Source: Candidatus Gastranaerophilales bacterium (lineage in GTDB: Bacteria; Cyanobacteriota; Vampirovibrionia; Gastranaerophilales; Gastranaerophilaceae). Taken from it: a DNA stretch of 64,000 nucleotides. The notes under the pieces are model-generated. The model was not told the DNA's origin. It ran no database searches and was given only the letters and a program-made list of their open reading frames with translations. Shown piece by piece: positions 16,719-59,871 of this stretch. The DNA lies in contig CALUUP010000005.1 in assembly GCA_944323985.1 (NCBI GenBank), positions 1 to 64,000 of the forward strand, given 5' to 3'. A program made the position numbers and the translations under genes. Numbering within the stretch: position 1 is the first letter of the stretch; each line of letters begins with the position of its first letter.

Positions 16719-18695
16719 TTATTTACCAACTGCAAAAGCTTTAACAACTGTTACTGAACCATCAACATTTTTTCTGACACCTCTATCAATTTGATCGTCG
16801 TCCAAATCTGCTGCATATGCAACCGGTGTATAAACTTGTGACATATCTACAGAATGTCTTTCATAACTTCTTAAAACTTTTGCATTTTCATTATCTTCAG
16901 GATCTATTGTTGGTTCTTCAGGATCTACCGGTTTTTCTGGGCCTACTAAATATGTTGTATCTTCTTGTCTGTTTTCACTTATATTATAACCATTTTCTCC
17001 ATTTGTTAATTCATAAGTAATCTCATCATTTCCATTTATTGTTACTTCTTTTGCATCACGAATATTTGTATATTTCAAAGTGTAATCTCTTGAAGCAAAA
17101 TCAACTTTTAATTTATCTGTTTCATTTCCTACTGTAATAGTATCAGCATGAACACCATTTCCTGTAATTTCAATAAATTTATCAGGTGCGGTCAAATACA
17201 ATTTATTTGCATTTGCACCTGTAACTTTTAAATCTCCATTTGAAGAAATATAAGCAAATGCTTCAGTTGCAACATTGGTTATTGTTCCTCCTGCAATATT
17301 CATATTTGTATGACTACTTGGATTATTCAATAGTTTATAAGTTTCCATTGTACAAATTATTTGCTCATCTACAGTTGAATTTTCAGTTGATTTTAGACCT
17401 CCAATATAACCCTTTGCACTAAAATCATATTTATTAGCAGTTATTAAAGCTTTTCCATCTGTTATTATATTTAAATTTTCAGATTTTAACTTAATTGAAT
17501 CTGCCACTGTATCTATAGTTACTGCTATAGTACCATTATTAGCATAAGCATCAATAGCCCCTCCAACTGTAAGACTTCCATCTTGCAATTTTCCAGCATC
17601 AATGTCATAACCTCCGATATGAATATTATTTTCTGAATTAATTATTAAATTTCCTCCAACATTATTATCTCCAATCACATGAACAAAATGTTTATAACCT
17701 TGAGGATTTTCTGATTCTTTTGTTGTTTTTAATTCCATATTTTTACCAACTTGAACATTACCAACTTCTAAAAATCCTCCACCATTTTCCATTTTTAAAT
17801 TTCCACCAACTTTAGTATTTCTTGCATACATCAAAACTCCATTACCTTTCACATTGGCATCCCCTGTAATTTCTAAAGCTTTGCCATTTGAAACATAGTT
17901 AAGAGCAACACTATCGTTTGATTTAATATCTAAATTACCGTTAATTTTACCACCACTTACTGTTTTAACAACGCCTTTATCCGCAATAATATATACATCA
18001 CCATCTATATTTACTGCTTCTAATCTAACAGCATCTTTTACATCAATATTTCCTGTTGATAAATAATCTTGACCATTAGCAGTTATTAATTTCAATCCGT
18101 TCTGTGTATTAATAGCTGATTGTACAACATTAATAGAAGGAGCTAAAATGTTAAATTCTCCTCCTACACTAAAATCAGAATCTTGAATATTAATAACACC
18201 AACAGGAAGACTCGTAGCAACTTTTGATACATCCATTTTACCATCTATAAAAGTTGCAGTCATTGGCTGAGTTGTTACCATAACATCTCCGGCTGTTGTA
18301 AATTTAGCTCCGTCAAATAAAACTCCGTTAGGATTTGAAATAATCAATTTCCCAATACCACTATTCGCATTTATTTGACCATATATTGTAGACATTCCAT
18401 TATTAACAGTATTTAAAATTGTTAAATTATTTGAACCGCCAACTGCATTAAAATTTAAACTTTCTCCTTTATTAACGTTTAAAGAACCCCAATTAACATG
18501 AGCATCTCCAGAAAAATTCAAATCAGCAGAACCATTTCCTTTGTTAATACCAGCAAAACCTCCATCAATTTTATCAATAACAGCTCCTCCTAAACCGTTA
18601 CCTAAACCGGTATCAATAGATGCCCAAGAAATTTGCATACTTGCAAACATTGTTGTTAAAACTAAGGCTGAAACTTTCTTTACAAAATTTTTCAT
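16719..18695 (-). CDS. Two-partner-secretion exoprotein (filamentous haemagglutinin-like)
   Basis: A 658-residue secreted protein. A Sec signal (MKNFVKKVSALVLTTMFASM...SWA) is followed by a TPS domain, residues about 27-150, with the hallmark ISNPNGVLFDGAKF near 118. Residues 150-560 are repeated short beta strands typical of a right-handed beta helix (such as VGGNLKMENGGGFLEVGNVQV). The C-terminus is an acidic Pro-rich linker and a conserved-looking tail ending VVKAFAVGK. Such proteins are exported across the outer membrane by a TpsB pore and act as adhesins, but no TpsB gene is in the window. It is short for an FHA-like adhesin. Ribosome site AGAGGAG. Confidence 0.82.
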   Translation of the reverse strand: MKNFVKKVSALVLTTMFASMQISWASIDTGLGNGLGGAVIDKIDGGFAGINKGNGSADLNFSGDAHVNWGSLNVNKGESLNFNAVGGSNNLTILNTVNNGMSTIYGQINANSGIGKLIISNPNGVLFDGAKFTTAGDVMVTTQPMTATFIDGKMDVSKVATSLPVGVINIQDSDFSVGGEFNILAPSINVVQSAINTQNGLKLITANGQDYLSTGNIDVKDAVRLEAVNIDGDVYIIADKGVVKTVSGGKINGNLDIKSNDSVALNYVSNGKALEITGDANVKGNGVLMYARNTKVGGNLKMENGGGFLEVGNVQVGKNMELKTTKESENPQGYKHFVHVIGDNNVGGNLIINSENNIHIGGYDIDAGKLQDGSLTVGGAIDAYANNGTIAVTIDTVADSIKLKSENLNIITDGKALITANKYDFSAKGYIGGLKSTENSTVDEQIICTMETYKLLNNPSSHTNMNIAGGTITNVATEAFAYISSNGDLKVTGANANKLYLTAPDKFIEITGNGVHADTITVGNETDKLKVDFASRDYTLKYTNIRDAKEVTINGNDEITYELTNGENGYNISENRQEDTTYLVGPEKPVDPEEPTIDPEDNENAKVLRSYERHSVDMSQVYTPVAYAADLDDDQIDRGVRKNVDGSVTVVKAFAVGK

Positions 18696-18763
18696 AATAT
18701 AATACTCCTCTAGTTATATTCTTTTATATATAAAGTATTTAATTAGAGAAAAATTGCCTTTTT

Positions 18764-18793
18764 GTTACAGTTTTTTACAATCTAATTACATTT
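18764..18793. promoter_or_regulatory. Triple TTACA direct repeat (HLR1-like) in divergent promoter region
   Basis: Reading plus: GTTACAGT, TT, TTTACAAT, then 3 nt and ATTACATT. TTACA cores start at 18765, 18775 and 18786, so they sit on one face of the helix. The first two units have the 8+2+8 spacing of the cyanobacterial HLR1 operator with one mismatch. The site lies upstream of both the exoprotein gene (minus) and the mannosidase gene (plus). Confidence 0.5.
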
Positions 18794-18850: not shown

Positions 18851-20953
18851 ATGAAAAAAGAAGTGATTGCTTACATTCATTCCCATTGGGACAGAGAATG
18901 GTATCGAGAATTTGAAATTTTTAGAATGCGTTTATTACGAGTTTTTGATAACGTATTGGATTTATTACAAAAAAATAAAATACCTTGCTTTTATTTTGAT
19001 GGTCAAACAGCTGCTTTAGAAGATTATTTAGAATTAAGACCAGAAAATAAAGATTTAATATTATCACTTATCAAAAGAAAAAAACTTTTCATCGGACCTT
19101 TTTATTGCTTAATTGATGAATTTCTTACAGATAAGACTTGCTTCAGAAAAAACTTAGAAATCGGTTTAAAATACTCTCTAAAATTAGGATGCGAAGATTT
19201 TATAGGATATTTACCCGATACATTTGGACATAGTCAAAACGTAGTTGATATTCTTAGAGATTATGGCATTGACAAGGCTATCGTTTGGAGAGGATGCGGA
19301 GATTTCCCAAGTGAATTTTCTTGGTGCGGTATGGATACCGTTCAATTAATTAGAGGTTATTTTAATGACACTTTTTCATCAAATTTATCTATTGAAAAAA
19401 AAGCCCAAAATATCAAATATAATCTGGATTTAATTGCTGAAAAATCAAAAGATATAATTCTTTTACCAATAGGAGCAGATCACTTAGGAGTGCCTATAGA
19501 TATTAAAGAACAAATTGAGAGCATAAATGAAATTTTAAAAGATGAGTATCACATAAAATTAGGCTCTCCTTTTGAGTATTTCAAAAAAACAGAAAACAAT
19601 TTTAAAGAATTCTGCTGGAATAATGAATTACGAGATAATTCCAAAACATTTGTCCTACAAGGATGTTATTCCTCAAGACTGGATTTAAAAAAAGAAAATG
19701 TAGAATGCTCATATTTATTAGATTTAGCGACGCGTTTTATTAAACTTGAAAAAGAAAACAAATATAACACTCTAATAAAATATGCATATAAACTACTCTT
19801 AAAAAACCAAGCTCACGATAGTATTTGTGGTTGTTCTACCGATGATGTTCACGAAGAAAATTTAATTCGATATAAAAAAATTAAACAAATTGCTAATACA
19901 ATAATTGATGAGTTAAAATTTAAAAATAATTTTCAAGAAAAGAAAATAATAAATTTATCAGATAAAAGTTTTTCTGGAATATTAGAGTTTGAAACAACCC
20001 AAAACTTAGATGGATATGAAAAAATTTCTTACAAAAAAGGTTTTGATAAATACCTTTTAACAGACACTAACAAAATTCCTGTAACAGAAGATTATACTAA
20101 CATTTACAAATATCTGGCTAAAGTTGAAAACTTAAAACCAAAAGAAATAGAATATTTGATACCAACAGACACACAATCCGATTTAAAAATTTCTGAAAAT
20201 TATATAAAAAACAATTTTATCAATTTAAAAATAATAAATAATAAAATTTTAATCAACAAAATCCCATTTTCTTTGGTTGATTTCATTGATTTAGGAGATA
20301 GTTATAATAATGGACCAAAAATTAACGATAAAGGAAAAGATTTTAAAATTTCCGGAACAAAAATAATTTTAAACACACCCCTTAGAGTTTCTTTAAAAAT
20401 AAATTTCGAAAATAACTGGGACATTATACCTCTAACAATATCACTAGATTCAAATTCTACATTTTTAAAATTCGAATTTAACTGGATTAATTCACAAAAA
20501 AATCACCTTTTGGAAGCTAAATTTGAACTTCCTAGTCATATCAAAGAAGTTTTCTCAGAAGATATGAATATATTAATCAAAAGAAATTTTGACTCAAATT
20601 ACGACATTAGAAAAAATTTACCTGACCAAAAAGGCATTGAGGCAAAAACTAACACTGCACCAATGCAAAGAGGTTTGTTAATTGATGAAAAAGAAAACAA
20701 TATAGGTATAATTACAAAAGGACTAACCCAATACGAAATTTTTCAAAATAATCTATACATTCCAATTCTGAGAGCCACAGGCGTCATATCAAACCCTAAA
20801 AACCCAGCAAGGTCTACTCCTGCTGGACCTCCGATAGAAGTTAAATCTTTGCAAATGATTGGAGAAAATAAAGCTGAATTTTATGTATTTTTTGGAAACG
20901 AAAATGCTTTTAACGAAGTTCTAAACCAAGTATATAATTACATTATTCTTTAG
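18851..20953 (+). CDS. GH38 alpha-mannosidase
   Basis: A 700-residue glycoside hydrolase family 38 enzyme, which releases alpha-linked mannose from glycans. The N-terminal zinc-binding motif is HSHWDREWY near residue 10; the catalytic nucleophile Asp lies in GYLPDTFGHS near 116; a later conserved block is NQAHDSICGCSTDDVHEEN near 323 (typical GH38 HDxxxG site). The C-terminal half is beta-rich as in the family, and PARSTPAGPP lies near the end. No signal peptide, so it probably acts in the cytoplasm on imported oligosaccharides. Length is at the short end of the family. The 3' end overlaps the convergent gene by 11 nt. Confidence 0.88.
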   Translation: MKKEVIAYIHSHWDREWYREFEIFRMRLLRVFDNVLDLLQKNKIPCFYFDGQTAALEDYLELRPENKDLILSLIKRKKLFIGPFYCLIDEFLTDKTCFRKNLEIGLKYSLKLGCEDFIGYLPDTFGHSQNVVDILRDYGIDKAIVWRGCGDFPSEFSWCGMDTVQLIRGYFNDTFSSNLSIEKKAQNIKYNLDLIAEKSKDIILLPIGADHLGVPIDIKEQIESINEILKDEYHIKLGSPFEYFKKTENNFKEFCWNNELRDNSKTFVLQGCYSSRLDLKKENVECSYLLDLATRFIKLEKENKYNTLIKYAYKLLLKNQAHDSICGCSTDDVHEENLIRYKKIKQIANTIIDELKFKNNFQEKKIINLSDKSFSGILEFETTQNLDGYEKISYKKGFDKYLLTDTNKIPVTEDYTNIYKYLAKVENLKPKEIEYLIPTDTQSDLKISENYIKNNFINLKIINNKILINKIPFSLVDFIDLGDSYNNGPKINDKGKDFKISGTKIILNTPLRVSLKINFENNWDIIPLTISLDSNSTFLKFEFNWINSQKNHLLEAKFELPSHIKEVFSEDMNILIKRNFDSNYDIRKNLPDQKGIEAKTNTAPMQRGLLIDEKENNIGIITKGLTQYEIFQNNLYIPILRATGVISNPKNPARSTPAGPPIEVKSLQMIGENKAEFYVFFGNENAFNEVLNQVYNYIIL

Positions 20954-21929
20954 GTTTAATTAAATCCATACTACTAAAATCAAAGCCGCTTGTTCTTAAA
21001 GTATCAATGACTTCTGAAGCATAAGATTTAAAAACAGAATTATAATTTTTCAACGCAACTTCAATTGCTCTTTGATTTTCCACATCAGTTAATTTTATTT
21101 CACCTGATTTTAACTTATCAATAGTTACTGGAACATTTTTATAATTAGCCTTTCCATATTTAATTTCAGCAACAGCCTTCGCATATTTCATTTTTAAACA
21201 AATCAAACCAACTTTTATCCCCAATTCATCATCTTTTGTACAAGCTCTTCTCAAATCATCAGGAGAAGAATAAGCTAAAATAAAATTACCTTGAGAATCC
21301 TTTTCAAATTCTCCATTTTCATCCTTTTTATACAAAATATCATTTAATAAATTTTCATCCATTTTTTTATACACTTCATTCCAATTTCCCTTAGCATTTG
21401 GGAAAAAATCTTGTATTGTAGACTTATTAACTTGCATTGGCCCAGCACCGGTTGGAGAATTAATATTTCTCTTAAAAGTACCGTTAGTCTCTTTTGCAAT
21501 AACAGCCGTTAAAAGATTTGGTTGCAGTTTATATTTTTCAGACACAGATAAAATTCTATCTGCCCAATATTTAATATCATCACTTGAAAGTTTTGCATTT
21601 TTCTTTTTAGCTTCCTGTTGAATTTTTAAAGAAATCAAATTTAACTTTTCTTCTTTTAAATAATCTCTTGAAAGCTTAATATCAGTGACTTCTGGCTTTA
21701 AATCTAATATTTTAGGTTTATAATCTTTTACCTCATCATTTGCCCAAATTGATGCTTCCTTAAATTTATCTTTAACACCTTTTTCAAATGATTCACACAT
21801 TTTATTAAAAACACTTACTTCATCATAACTCTCAGTTTTTTCCAAAAAACCACTACCATCTTTATCTGCTAATTTAGCAAATAATAACTTCATTCCTGTT
21901 AATTTACTGTAATCAAAACCTTTTGACAT
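20943..21929 (-). CDS. EF-hand plus lytic-transglycosylase-like protein
   Basis: A 328-residue protein. Near the N-terminus, Asp22-Lys-Asp-Gly-Ser-Gly-Phe-Leu-Glu...Glu33 fits a canonical 12-residue EF-hand calcium loop. Residues about 130-260 resemble an SLT fold: AVIAKETNGTF (candidate catalytic Glu) followed by SPTGAGPMQVNKSTIQDFFP. A charged helical segment separates the two. There is no Sec signal or membrane helix, odd for a peptidoglycan-cleaving enzyme; export by the flagellar or another apparatus is possible (a rod-cap muramidase such as FlgJ goes that way), but this is speculation. TTGGAGAT precedes the ATG. Confidence 0.65.
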   Translation of the reverse strand: MSKGFDYSKLTGMKLLFAKLADKDGSGFLEKTESYDEVSVFNKMCESFEKGVKDKFKEASIWANDEVKDYKPKILDLKPEVTDIKLSRDYLKEEKLNLISLKIQQEAKKKNAKLSSDDIKYWADRILSVSEKYKLQPNLLTAVIAKETNGTFKRNINSPTGAGPMQVNKSTIQDFFPNAKGNWNEVYKKMDENLLNDILYKKDENGEFEKDSQGNFILAYSSPDDLRRACTKDDELGIKVGLICLKMKYAKAVAEIKYGKANYKNVPVTIDKLKSGEIKLTDVENQRAIEVALKNYNSVFKSYASEVIDTLRTSGFDFSSMDLIKPKE

Positions 21930-21981
21930 ACTATATCTCCAATTTAGTTTAACGACAAATTTAAATAAAACTTTAATATTT

Positions 21982-21999
21982 TTTACAAATATTTACAAA
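21982..21999 (+). promoter_or_regulatory. HLR1-type direct repeat upstream of agmatinase
   Basis: TTTACAAA (21982-21989), TA, TTTACAAA (21992-21999): two identical octamers separated by 2 nt, matching every position of the RpaB/HLR1 consensus KTTACAWW-NN-KTTACAWW known from cyanobacteria. A likely -10, TATAAT, lies at 22029-22034, so the site is at about -59 to -42 of the speB start point, where HLR1 activates in cyanobacteria. Confidence 0.6.
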
Positions 22000-22065
22000 G
22001 TAAATAAAATAACCCAATGTCTTTAGTCTATAATAAATGTTATTAAAACTTATAAGGAGAAAACT

Positions 22066-22902
22066 ATGTTAACAGGACCATTTTTAGACAGAAATTGGAT
22101 TGGTGAAAATAAAAACTATGAAAGTTCAAATATTATCATGTTAGGAATGCCTTTTGATGGAACAGTATCCTATCGTCCGGGCTCAAGATTTGCACCCGAA
22201 CAAATACGCCTTGCAAGTTGGGGACTGGAAGAATATTCTCCTTATTTTGATAAACACTTAGAAGATTGTAATTTCCATGACGCAGGAGATTTAGAATTTC
22301 CTCTTGGAAACACAAAAGCTTCTTTAGATTTAATACAAAAAAACGTTGAAGAAATATATAAAGACGGAAAACGTGTTTTTGGAATTGGTGGTGAACATTT
22401 GGTAACATTGCCTGAAATTAAAGCCATTTCAAAATATATTGATAACCTTGCAATAGTTCACTTTGACGCTCATACAGACTTGAGAGAAGAATATATGGGA
22501 GAAGCTCTTTCTCACTCTGCAGTAATACAACATTCAGGAAAAATTGTTGGTTTTGAAAATGTTAAACAAATTGGCATTCGTTCAGGAATGAAAGAAGAGT
22601 TCGAGCTTATGAAAAAATATAATACATTAATTCATAATTATTCAGAACTTGATTGCCTAAAAAATAAAAATATATTTATAACAGTAGACTTAGATGTTCT
22701 AGATACATCAATCATGCCTGGAACGGGAACACCTGAAGTTGGAGGACTTACCTTCAATGAACTTATTGGCTGGTTTAAATACTTAGCAGATTTTAATATA
22801 ATAGGAGCAGATGTTGTAGAATTAGCTCCGGATTATGATTCAAGTGGTGCTTCTACTGCAGTTGCGACAAAAGTTATCAGAGAACTTTTAATGACAATGT
22901 AA
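22066..22902 (+). CDS. speB: Agmatinase
   Basis: A 278-residue ureohydrolase that converts agmatine to putrescine and urea. Binuclear manganese ligands are visible in GGEHLVTLP near 107, AIVHFDAHTDLREEY near 127 (HFDAHTD) and VDLDVLDTSIMPGTGTPEVGG near 206 (VDLDVLD). GTPEVGGLTFNE is typical of agmatinase rather than arginase. N-terminal GMPFDGTVSYRPGSRFAPEQIR (in two parts: GMPFDGTVSYR, GSRFAPEQIR) matches the family. The SD AAGGAG is excellent. It would supply polyamines, whose by-product is recycled by MtnP at 230. Preceded by an HLR1-like operator. Confidence 0.92.
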   Translation: MLTGPFLDRNWIGENKNYESSNIIMLGMPFDGTVSYRPGSRFAPEQIRLASWGLEEYSPYFDKHLEDCNFHDAGDLEFPLGNTKASLDLIQKNVEEIYKDGKRVFGIGGEHLVTLPEIKAISKYIDNLAIVHFDAHTDLREEYMGEALSHSAVIQHSGKIVGFENVKQIGIRSGMKEEFELMKKYNTLIHNYSELDCLKNKNIFITVDLDVLDTSIMPGTGTPEVGGLTFNELIGWFKYLADFNIIGADVVELAPDYDSSGASTAVATKVIRELLMTM

Positions 22903-43364: not shown

Positions 43365-44093
43365 ATGCCAAGTCCATTAAATACATTTCTAGATATAGCA
43401 AAAGAAAATAATGCAGATGATATAATTATGGAATCTACATTTACTCAAACCACACTTCATAAACTTGAAACGCTTGGTAAAAATTTAGGTGAAAAAGTAG
43501 AAAATTTTATAAAAAAAGAACCTATAAAACCAAACGGTCCAACCCCTACACTAGAAGAATCCGCTTTTATACCAAAACCTAAAAATGAAACTACTTTATA
43601 CAAGGTAACGAACAGAGAAAATGAACTCCCTTTTGTAGAAAAGACTTCTGAATTTTTCAAAAATTTAAATTATAAAATTCATGGTTTTAGCGTTAAAACA
43701 TCTTTAAAAAATAACAACAATGAATATTCTGTTTTAACAGGAGAAAAATTTGGATTTGGAATAGAATCAAAAAATGGCACATATAAACATAGTTTAAGCG
43801 GACATTTTAACGTTGGAAATGAAAAGTTAACACTTGAATATAATTCAGAAACCGCTGCAAATTCTTACAACATATCAATCTATCATCAAAATAAAAATAC
43901 CGGATTATATGCAGGATATTCAAACAAAAAAGGGCTAAATTCAGCTTTCGCAGTAGACGAAAATAGTGCATCAATAAGTTGCAGTTATGATAAAAACTAT
44001 AAAAATTGCAAAATGAATGTCGGAGGTTATGCCACTACAGGAGATAATTATTCTAATCCGTTCTTTGGAGTAAATGGCAGAATTACTTTTTAA
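43365..44093 (+). CDS. Beta-rich protein of unknown function
   Basis: A 242-residue protein. Residues 1-95 are helical/charged then polar Pro-rich (KPNGPTPTLEESAFIPKPKN). Residues 96-242 alternate short amphipathic strands with Gly and Asn turns (KFGFGIESKNGTYKHSLSGH, then GLYAGYSNKKGLNSAFA), and the last residue is Phe after GRITF. That pattern resembles an outer-membrane beta barrel end, but no signal peptide is visible, so I cannot say how it would reach the membrane. SD AAGGAG with a TATAAT at 43331. Function unknown. Confidence 0.62.
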   Translation: MPSPLNTFLDIAKENNADDIIMESTFTQTTLHKLETLGKNLGEKVENFIKKEPIKPNGPTPTLEESAFIPKPKNETTLYKVTNRENELPFVEKTSEFFKNLNYKIHGFSVKTSLKNNNNEYSVLTGEKFGFGIESKNGTYKHSLSGHFNVGNEKLTLEYNSETAANSYNISIYHQNKNTGLYAGYSNKKGLNSAFAVDENSASISCSYDKNYKNCKMNVGGYATTGDNYSNPFFGVNGRITF

Positions 44094-44496: not shown

Positions 44497-45333
44497 CTAT
44501 TGAGTTGCCATTTCCATTGCAGATTGTAGCAAATCTTTGTTTGACTTAATCAAAGCATTAACAAGTTCCATTTGAACCTTAGCCTGTTGATAATCAGACA
44601 TATTCGCTTTGAAATCGGTATTTGCCTGTTCTAATAGCCCAGAACGAATTTCTCCGCGTCCAACGACAGGTTTTCCAGATTCAGGAGTTTCAACAAAAAC
44701 CCCTTCTTTAACTTCATACAACCCATTAGGGTTATGAAAGTTTGCTGTTGCTATTTTATATAAAGGTACAGAACGATTACCTCCATCGGCTTTACCATAG
44801 ATAGTACCGTCATTTTTTATCTCATATTCATCATATTTGCCTAAAAACTTACCATTATTAGGATCAATCCAAAGTTTAATATTTGTAGTAGGCACACTCA
44901 AAGCCCCACCTTTTAGAGCAGTCTCTTCGTATAAATCAGCACTAATAGATTTAGTCCCGGACATTATTTCACCTTTATCATTCAAAATATATCCTTGAAC
45001 AGTCGCACCACTTTTAGCTCTATAAACACCTTCAGAATCAAATGTAAACTCACCTAAGCGAGTATAAGACACATTTCCTTCAGGAGTTCTTAATACAAAA
45101 TAGCCGGTACCTTCAAAAAACAAATTCTCATTAGAAGTTCCTGGAATAGATTTACCCTGTCCAAGATTTTTCACATTATTATCAATAACAGCACCACCAA
45201 GAAATGTTTTGAATGTAACTTTATTTTCTCTATACCCTGGAGTATAAACATTAGTTAAGTTTTCTGCTAATACATCCATCCATTGAACGGTTGCTTTTTG
45301 AGTATTAATTGCCGTTGTGTATAAATCATTCAT
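44497..45333 (-). CDS. Flagellar rod/hook protein (FlgE/F/G family)
   Basis: A 278-residue axial flagellar protein. The N-terminal signature LAENLTNVYTPGYRENKVTF near 23 is the flagellar rod/hook motif, but with NVYTPGYR where NVNTPGYK is usual. EGTGYFVLRTPEGNVSYTRLG near 74 (in parts: EGTGYFVL, GNVSYTRLGEF) and the C-terminal coiled segment MELVNALIKSNKDLLQSAM match FlgF/FlgG. Size fits FlgF or FlgG better than FlgE. Its ATG overlaps the fliK-like gene's end by 8 nt. Confidence 0.78.
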   Translation of the reverse strand: MNDLYTTAINTQKATVQWMDVLAENLTNVYTPGYRENKVTFKTFLGGAVIDNNVKNLGQGKSIPGTSNENLFFEGTGYFVLRTPEGNVSYTRLGEFTFDSEGVYRAKSGATVQGYILNDKGEIMSGTKSISADLYEETALKGGALSVPTTNIKLWIDPNNGKFLGKYDEYEIKNDGTIYGKADGGNRSVPLYKIATANFHNPNGLYEVKEGVFVETPESGKPVVGRGEIRSGLLEQANTDFKANMSDYQQAKVQMELVNALIKSNKDLLQSAMEMATQ

Positions 45334-59771: not shown

Positions 59772-59871
59772 TATTGTAAACTTTTGTTAACAAAATTAGC
59801 CAGTTGGTCAAATTGTCATTAAAAAAATACTTTACATAACTATAAGTGTTAAAAATGTGTGAAGAAAAATA

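Follow-up and report, generated by a model that had tools for sequence, protein, structure and literature searches.

In photosynthetic cyanobacteria, RpaB and NblS are signature regulators of light acclimation; the HLR1 operator of this system has the published consensus KTTACAWW-N2-KTTACAWW, with RpaB activating from a zone between -66 and -45 (PMC13421787). The accessible text of the genomic reports on their dark-living relatives describes Gastranaerophilales as a lineage without photosynthesis (PMC3787301) and records homologues of rpaA, rpaB and nblS in Melainabacteria, for which the authors proposed a function other than light (PMC3787301; PMC4040986); such homologues have been on record since 2013, with no known targets. 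A literature search returned no report of HLR1 in Gastranaerophilales or of a link between RpaB and sigma-28; the RpaB/NblS homologues of the lineage are known, and the operators and the sigma-28 link were not found reported.

The window analyzed here, a stretch of 64,000 nucleotides from a Gastranaerophilales bacterium, contains one site whose plus-strand letters, TTTACAAATATTTACAAA, show no mismatch to KTTACAWWNNKTTACAWW and agree with the HLR1 consensus at all positions, which bears out the full match claimed in the earlier note. The site (hereafter the focal operator) is located in a 136-bp divergent intergenic region between speB, on the plus strand, and a gene for an EF-hand/SLT-like protein, on the minus strand (Table 1). 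It reads along the plus strand, and with respect to the minus-strand gene this is the 'reverse' orientation adopted by the majority of the sites.

Table 1. Features of the focal intergenic region and of the other HLR1-like sites in the window.
Feature	Position	Strand	Basis or score
Perfect HLR1-type operator, TTTACAAA-TA-TTTACAAA	21982..21999	+	Sequence; 0 mismatches; predicted
Sigma-28 (FliA)-type promoter, TAAAGTTTTATTTAAATTTGTCGTTAA	21949..21975	-	2 mismatches of 16; predicted
EF-hand/lytic-transglycosylase-like (SLT-like) protein, 328 aa, best-supported target	20943..21929	-	ORF
TATAAT, plausible -10 of speB	22029..22034	+	Sequence; putative start position
speB-like agmatinase/arginase-family gene, 278 aa, divergent neighbour	22066..22902	+	ORF
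Second HLR1-like site, TTAACAAAAGTTTACAAT, one mismatch	59773..59790	-	17.9 bits
HDIG-domain protein, 250 aa	59872..60624	+	HDIG 29.8 bits against a cut-off of 27.6
HLR1-like site, GTTACAGTTTTTTACAAT	18764..18781	+	15.6 bits
HLR1-like site, TTTACAAAATTTTTCATA	18679..18696	+	15.4 bits

Across the whole genome (1.86 Mb in 68 contigs), 43 perfect HLR1 sites were counted against 3 matches to the chance control, the HLR1 pattern read backwards (Poisson P ~3e-34), which excludes the objection, foreseen in the earlier note, that the motif might be as frequent as in shuffled sequence. The two ends of contig C1 (G000:C1:41-58 and C1:160572-160589) share one HLR1 in inverted arrangement, probably as a repeat or assembly effect, so the 43 sites may represent 42 loci; in addition, the sites are not all independent, since some targets are paralogues. 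When the gap between the half-sites was left free from 0 to 24, N2 accounted for 43 of the 84 matches and N3 for 4. Of the ~161 sites counted over three genomes, only 1 falls within a clear gene, and sites with a single target adopt one orientation towards the gene in a ratio of 60:19 (P=4e-6). Among 291 genomes drawn from the phylum, the nine that belong to the genus total 431 HLR1 sites against 28 in the control, with 40-69 per genome. Counts are mostly 10-30 in the remaining genera of the family (range 4-71), 3-27 in many genomes elsewhere in the phylum, and approximately zero in five genomes from a different family of the class.

Inside the window, a matrix trained on two other genomes returned four sites of at least 15 bits (starting at 21982, 59773, 18764 and 18679), all of them intergenic or overlapping a gene start, against 0.4 expected under a second-order Markov null. 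The earlier estimate of four seen and about 0.1-0.2 expected was, therefore, close, with the correction that only the focal operator is a perfect HLR1. The site at 59773 has the majority orientation and lies 81 bp upstream of the HDIG-domain gene, which is its likely target. The site at 18764 is found 68 bp before a minus-strand gene of 658 aa (16719-18695) whose product has a signal-peptide-like N-terminus, and the remaining one overlaps the start of this same gene and could be a chance match.

Three OmpR-type regulators are encoded in the genome. One of them (L031:964-1749), made up of an OmpR-type receiver and a winged-helix DNA-binding domain, passes the NCBIfam equivalog model for RpaB (NF045944) with 354.1 bits against a cut-off of 330, the paralogues scoring 200 and 206, and the absence of any RpaB/OmpR-family regulator, which the earlier note had considered fatal to its proposal, is thus excluded. 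The recognition helix of this RpaB orthologue, DTRVVDVHISRLR, is that of the RpaB of cyanobacterial-type genomes and differs in the paralogues, and the protein is predicted to act at HLR1. RpaB is above the cut-off in 43 of the 47 genomes tested across the phylum; in some lineages (f3, f4, f6 and f13) it is present with almost no HLR1. The single Cys found in all cyanobacterial-type RpaB proteins is a Thr in all the Gastranaerophilales RpaB aligned; since redox control was not lost when this Cys was mutated (PMC13421787), the residue does not define RpaB. Regarding the rpaB/nblS pair looked for, the second partner falls short: the kinase L115 has NblS as its best family with 315 bits against a cut-off of 1000 (NF045911), followed by WalK with 310, and from these scores it may be described as NblS/WalK-like only.

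A coincidental match in AT-rich intergenic DNA would suit the base composition of the genome and the modest excess in the window when up to three mismatches are allowed (23 matches against 14.2 in shuffles), but it is made vanishingly improbable by exact matches 14-fold above the control genome-wide, by the exact spacing, and by the conservation of the operator before orthologues; the match at the focal operator is not due to chance. The identity of the protein that binds it deserves more attention, since cyanobacterial RpaA and RpaB have some promoters in common (PMC13421787), and the RpaA orthologue (L033, the closest to RpaA in the PDB with 267 bits) or the RpaA-like L032 (next, with 210 bits) might bind HLR1, alone or in competition with RpaB. 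In agreement with this, a genome of the same order that is 99% complete (G210) carries 11 HLR1 sites against 1 in the control, and no recognisable RpaB orthologue was found in it. Nevertheless, L033 and L032 share only 29-32% identity with RpaB over the DNA-binding domain and have other recognition helices, whereas the RpaB of the genome matches the cyanobacterial one exactly, and binding by either paralogue is regarded as rather unlikely. The sites could also be WalR/PhoB-type boxes belonging to a cell-wall regulatory system like WalRK of Firmicutes, given that their complement, TGTAA...TGTAA, resembles the WalR box TGTWAH-N5-TGTWAH (PMC4168254), that the kinase scores almost equally as WalK and NblS, and that wall-hydrolase-like proteins occur among the targets. 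This interpretation appears very unlikely, as the half-sites repeat every 10 bp (43 sites at N2 and 4 at N3) and not with the 11-bp period of the WalR box, and the regulator, which is above the RpaB cut-off, reaches 219 against 340 as YycF/WalR; taken only as an analogy for how the system operates, the comparison with WalRK may still hold.

With RpaB retained as the predicted regulator, the divergent arrangement leaves two genes to be weighed as the target. The earlier note placed the operator upstream of agmatinase, which is correct by position and incomplete, the divergent gene being the better-supported target. The -10 that it proposed for speB is confirmed as TATAAT and, with the start that it predicts, would put HLR1 at about -59 to -42, within the activation zone described for RpaB (PMC13421787); furthermore, a divergent operator can serve both genes, so that activation of agmatinase from this position, with speB as the real target, has arguments in its favor. 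Against this, HLR1 precedes speB in just one of the 26 relatives that have the gene (G162, whose SpeB is 97% identical), and this exception carries the same divergent EF-hand/SLT-like gene; in G271, where speB and the SLT-like gene are separated, a one-mismatch HLR1 precedes the latter and none is found before speB. Among the SLT-like orthologues of the genus, 13 of 16 have an HLR1 that is perfect (8 cases) or carries a single mismatch, in identical orientation and 51-99 bp upstream of the start, and, among the orthologues with a readable upstream neighbour, speB sits beside the SLT-like gene only in the focal genome and G162. HLR1 stays with the SLT-like gene where speB is absent, and, therefore, the operator follows the SLT-like gene. 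The comparison of the 26 relatives rules out speB as a conserved target, and the conservation before orthologous speB genes that was expected to support the earlier assignment is confined to a single relative; as judged from these sequences, that assignment was probably wrong, speB as the real target is improbable, and the gene is possibly, or secondarily, a target of the focal operator. The product of the favored SLT-like gene has no evident Sec signal, and its SLT domain is weak (E=0.0022, with 18.0 bits, below the Pfam gathering score of 21.3); KE[ST] and GPM motifs are retained in the orthologues, and the protein is, on this basis, designated as SLT-like only.

The flanks of the sites were aligned in the focal genome, in G204 (same genus) and in G146 (another genus), where an element first seen by eye was recognized as a sigma-28 promoter, with the published consensus TAAAGTTT-N11-GCCGATAA (PMC2859248). 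At the focal locus, its octamer starts 6 bp from the operator and the element runs from 21975 down to 21949, with transcription predicted to start near 21943 on the minus strand; this promoter, between the operator and the minus-strand gene, had escaped the earlier note, whose identification of an HLR1-type operator stands. With up to 4 mismatches of 16, the element is present on the majority flank of 53 of the 143 sites in the three genomes (10 of 40 in the focal genome, 28 of 63 in G204 and 15 of 40 in G146), many HLR1 sites having no assigned promoter, gene starts being mechanically called and the genomes being drafts; as controls, the opposite flank gave 12 scattered matches and shuffled sequence 4.7. 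The -35 octamer starts 16-17 bp from the operator in 40 cases and 27-28 bp in 9. The SLT-like genes bear the element in 13 of 16 cases, at 6-7 bp in six and at 17 bp in seven, these spacings in orthologues being one helical turn apart, and the helical phasing argues for direct contact between RpaB and the polymerase. In the three more distant SLT-like genes, a different element is present, in which GGCAATT or TGAAATT precedes CTTTATATAT. This second promoter-like element, with TGAAATT or GGCAATTT 16-18 bp from HLR1 and then ATACTTTATATATAT (as at L012, L017 and L021), recurs at 29 sites in the three genomes. When 717 kb of the focal genome were scanned for sigma-28 promoters with no more than 2 mismatches, only two were intergenic, and each of them lies just downstream of a perfect HLR1.

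A BLAST search starting from an RpoD-like sigma factor located a FliA-family sigma factor at L371:3260-4099, which exceeds both family cut-offs (TIGR02479, 233.4 against 189.6; NF005413, 210.9 against 201), and the sigma-28-type promoters are predicted from their sequence to depend on FliA. A second, diverged FliA-like sigma factor (L373:16009-16707) remains below the cut-off (85.5 against 189.6), and the window ORF at 43365-44093 was discarded as FliA on finding no family match. A constant spacing between HLR1 and a sigma-70 TATAAT was likewise rejected, since its 45-nt peak (17 of 156) was not reproduced by a -10 matrix; what the aligned flanks showed instead was the sigma-28 motif, together with a second, TATATAT-rich class of promoter.

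Taken together, these data make it likely, on sequence grounds, that the focal operator is an RpaB operator activating the FliA promoter of the SLT-like gene, within a lineage-specific and partly FliA-dependent regulon. RpaB would bind HLR1 as a tandem dimer, placed at about -67 to -50 in the main sigma-28 class and at about -56 to -39 in the focal case relative to the predicted starts, to be compared with the cyanobacterial zone of -66 to -45, and, once bound, would contact FliA-carrying RNA polymerase and thereby activate the promoter. The focal operator would serve the minus-strand EF-hand/SLT-like gene, any effect on the divergent speB being secondary. Activation is here preferred over repression, as suggested by position alone. 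The regulon would consist of lineage-specific and mostly uncharacterised proteins, in part FliA-dependent and in part expressed through the second promoter type. An OmpR-family activator repeatedly paired with helically phased sigma-28 promoters would be unusual, given that the activator CRP of E. coli acts directly on just two promoters of this class (PMC2859248).

Most of the 30 target-side proteins scanned have no Pfam family, the exceptions bearing SLT-like, lysozyme, EF-hand, HEAT, AAA or 5'-nucleotidase domains, and no photosynthesis gene was found among the target proteins scanned or read. Targets that recur across genera include the MGM-ASQARLL family and rpoB, among others. The family with an MGM/L-x-(A/S)SQARLL N-terminus (L004, L026, L129, and loci of G204 and G146) is the largest HLR1 target group, present in three genomes and with no Pfam or NCBIfam match. 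HLR1 is also found before rpoB in three genomes of two genera (L136, L221, L222) and before the S10 operon in two genomes (L010, L278), and in G146 two tandem flagellin genes (L265, G146:C42:61600-66800) each have a perfect HLR1 upstream and no sigma-28 element. The genes ftsZ, uvrB and gpsA were dismissed as targets, the operator beside each facing the divergent gene in the majority orientation and, for ftsZ, the sigma-28 promoter being also directed away.

Sec-like N-termini are rare among the targets (4 of 86, against 159 of 547 background ORFs), as judged by a rough test of hydrophobicity on ORFs that were called mechanically. In 14 of the 86 targets and 37 of the 547 background ORFs, the N-terminal region contains an F-K-(G/A) motif, perhaps a signal for export or localisation. 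The genome has two full-length FlhA-type export-gate genes (L344, G000:C10:1-16000; L343, G000:C11:1-18000), one with flagellar-type fliP/fliR/flhB neighbours and the other with fliF/fliE/fliH-like ones, and the lower-scoring type is the sole one in the other genera of the family tested; a flagellar hook/rod gene of the FlgEFG subfamily lies on the minus strand of the window at 44497-45333. Export of the targets via a type III-like apparatus is a possibility. As a tentative and rather speculative extension, RpaB of Gastranaerophilales might gate a FliA-linked regulon whose products lack Sec signals and leave the cell by the flagellar or the second type III-like apparatus, thereby linking secretion to an envelope or redox signal; if so, the light control of cyanobacteria would have arisen later, by co-option of an older envelope/motility regulator. 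With these conserved operators and genes listed, the role of RpaB without photosynthesis becomes directly testable.

Compared with known systems, the operators share the 18-bp consensus and N2 spacing with the HLR1/NblS-RpaB system of photosynthetic cyanobacteria (PCC 6803, PCC 7942), the recognition helix of RpaB is the same, and in the main promoter class the operator is predicted to lie near -66 to -45. They differ from the cyanobacterial system in the pairing with sigma-28 promoters, in targets among which no photosynthesis function was identified, in the Thr that replaces the conserved Cys of RpaB, and in abundance, the HLR1 counts of the genus exceeding those of most photosynthetic genomes sampled. 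The Melainabacteria reports (PMC3787301; PMC4040986) describe the same regulator genes and, in their accessible text, name no operators, targets or sigma-28 link. The WalR (YycF) boxes of Firmicutes are also built of TGTWA half-sites in tandem, the regulator and the kinase come from related families, and some targets are wall-hydrolase-like; the period is different, however, and the regulator falls in YycF and not, as here, in RpaB. At the CRP-activated sigma-28 promoters of E. coli, aer and trg (PMC2859248), the activator is likewise bound just upstream, there centred at -49.5; however, that activator belongs to another family and acts at two promoters, whereas here the arrangement recurs at dozens of sites per genome and at several helically phased distances.
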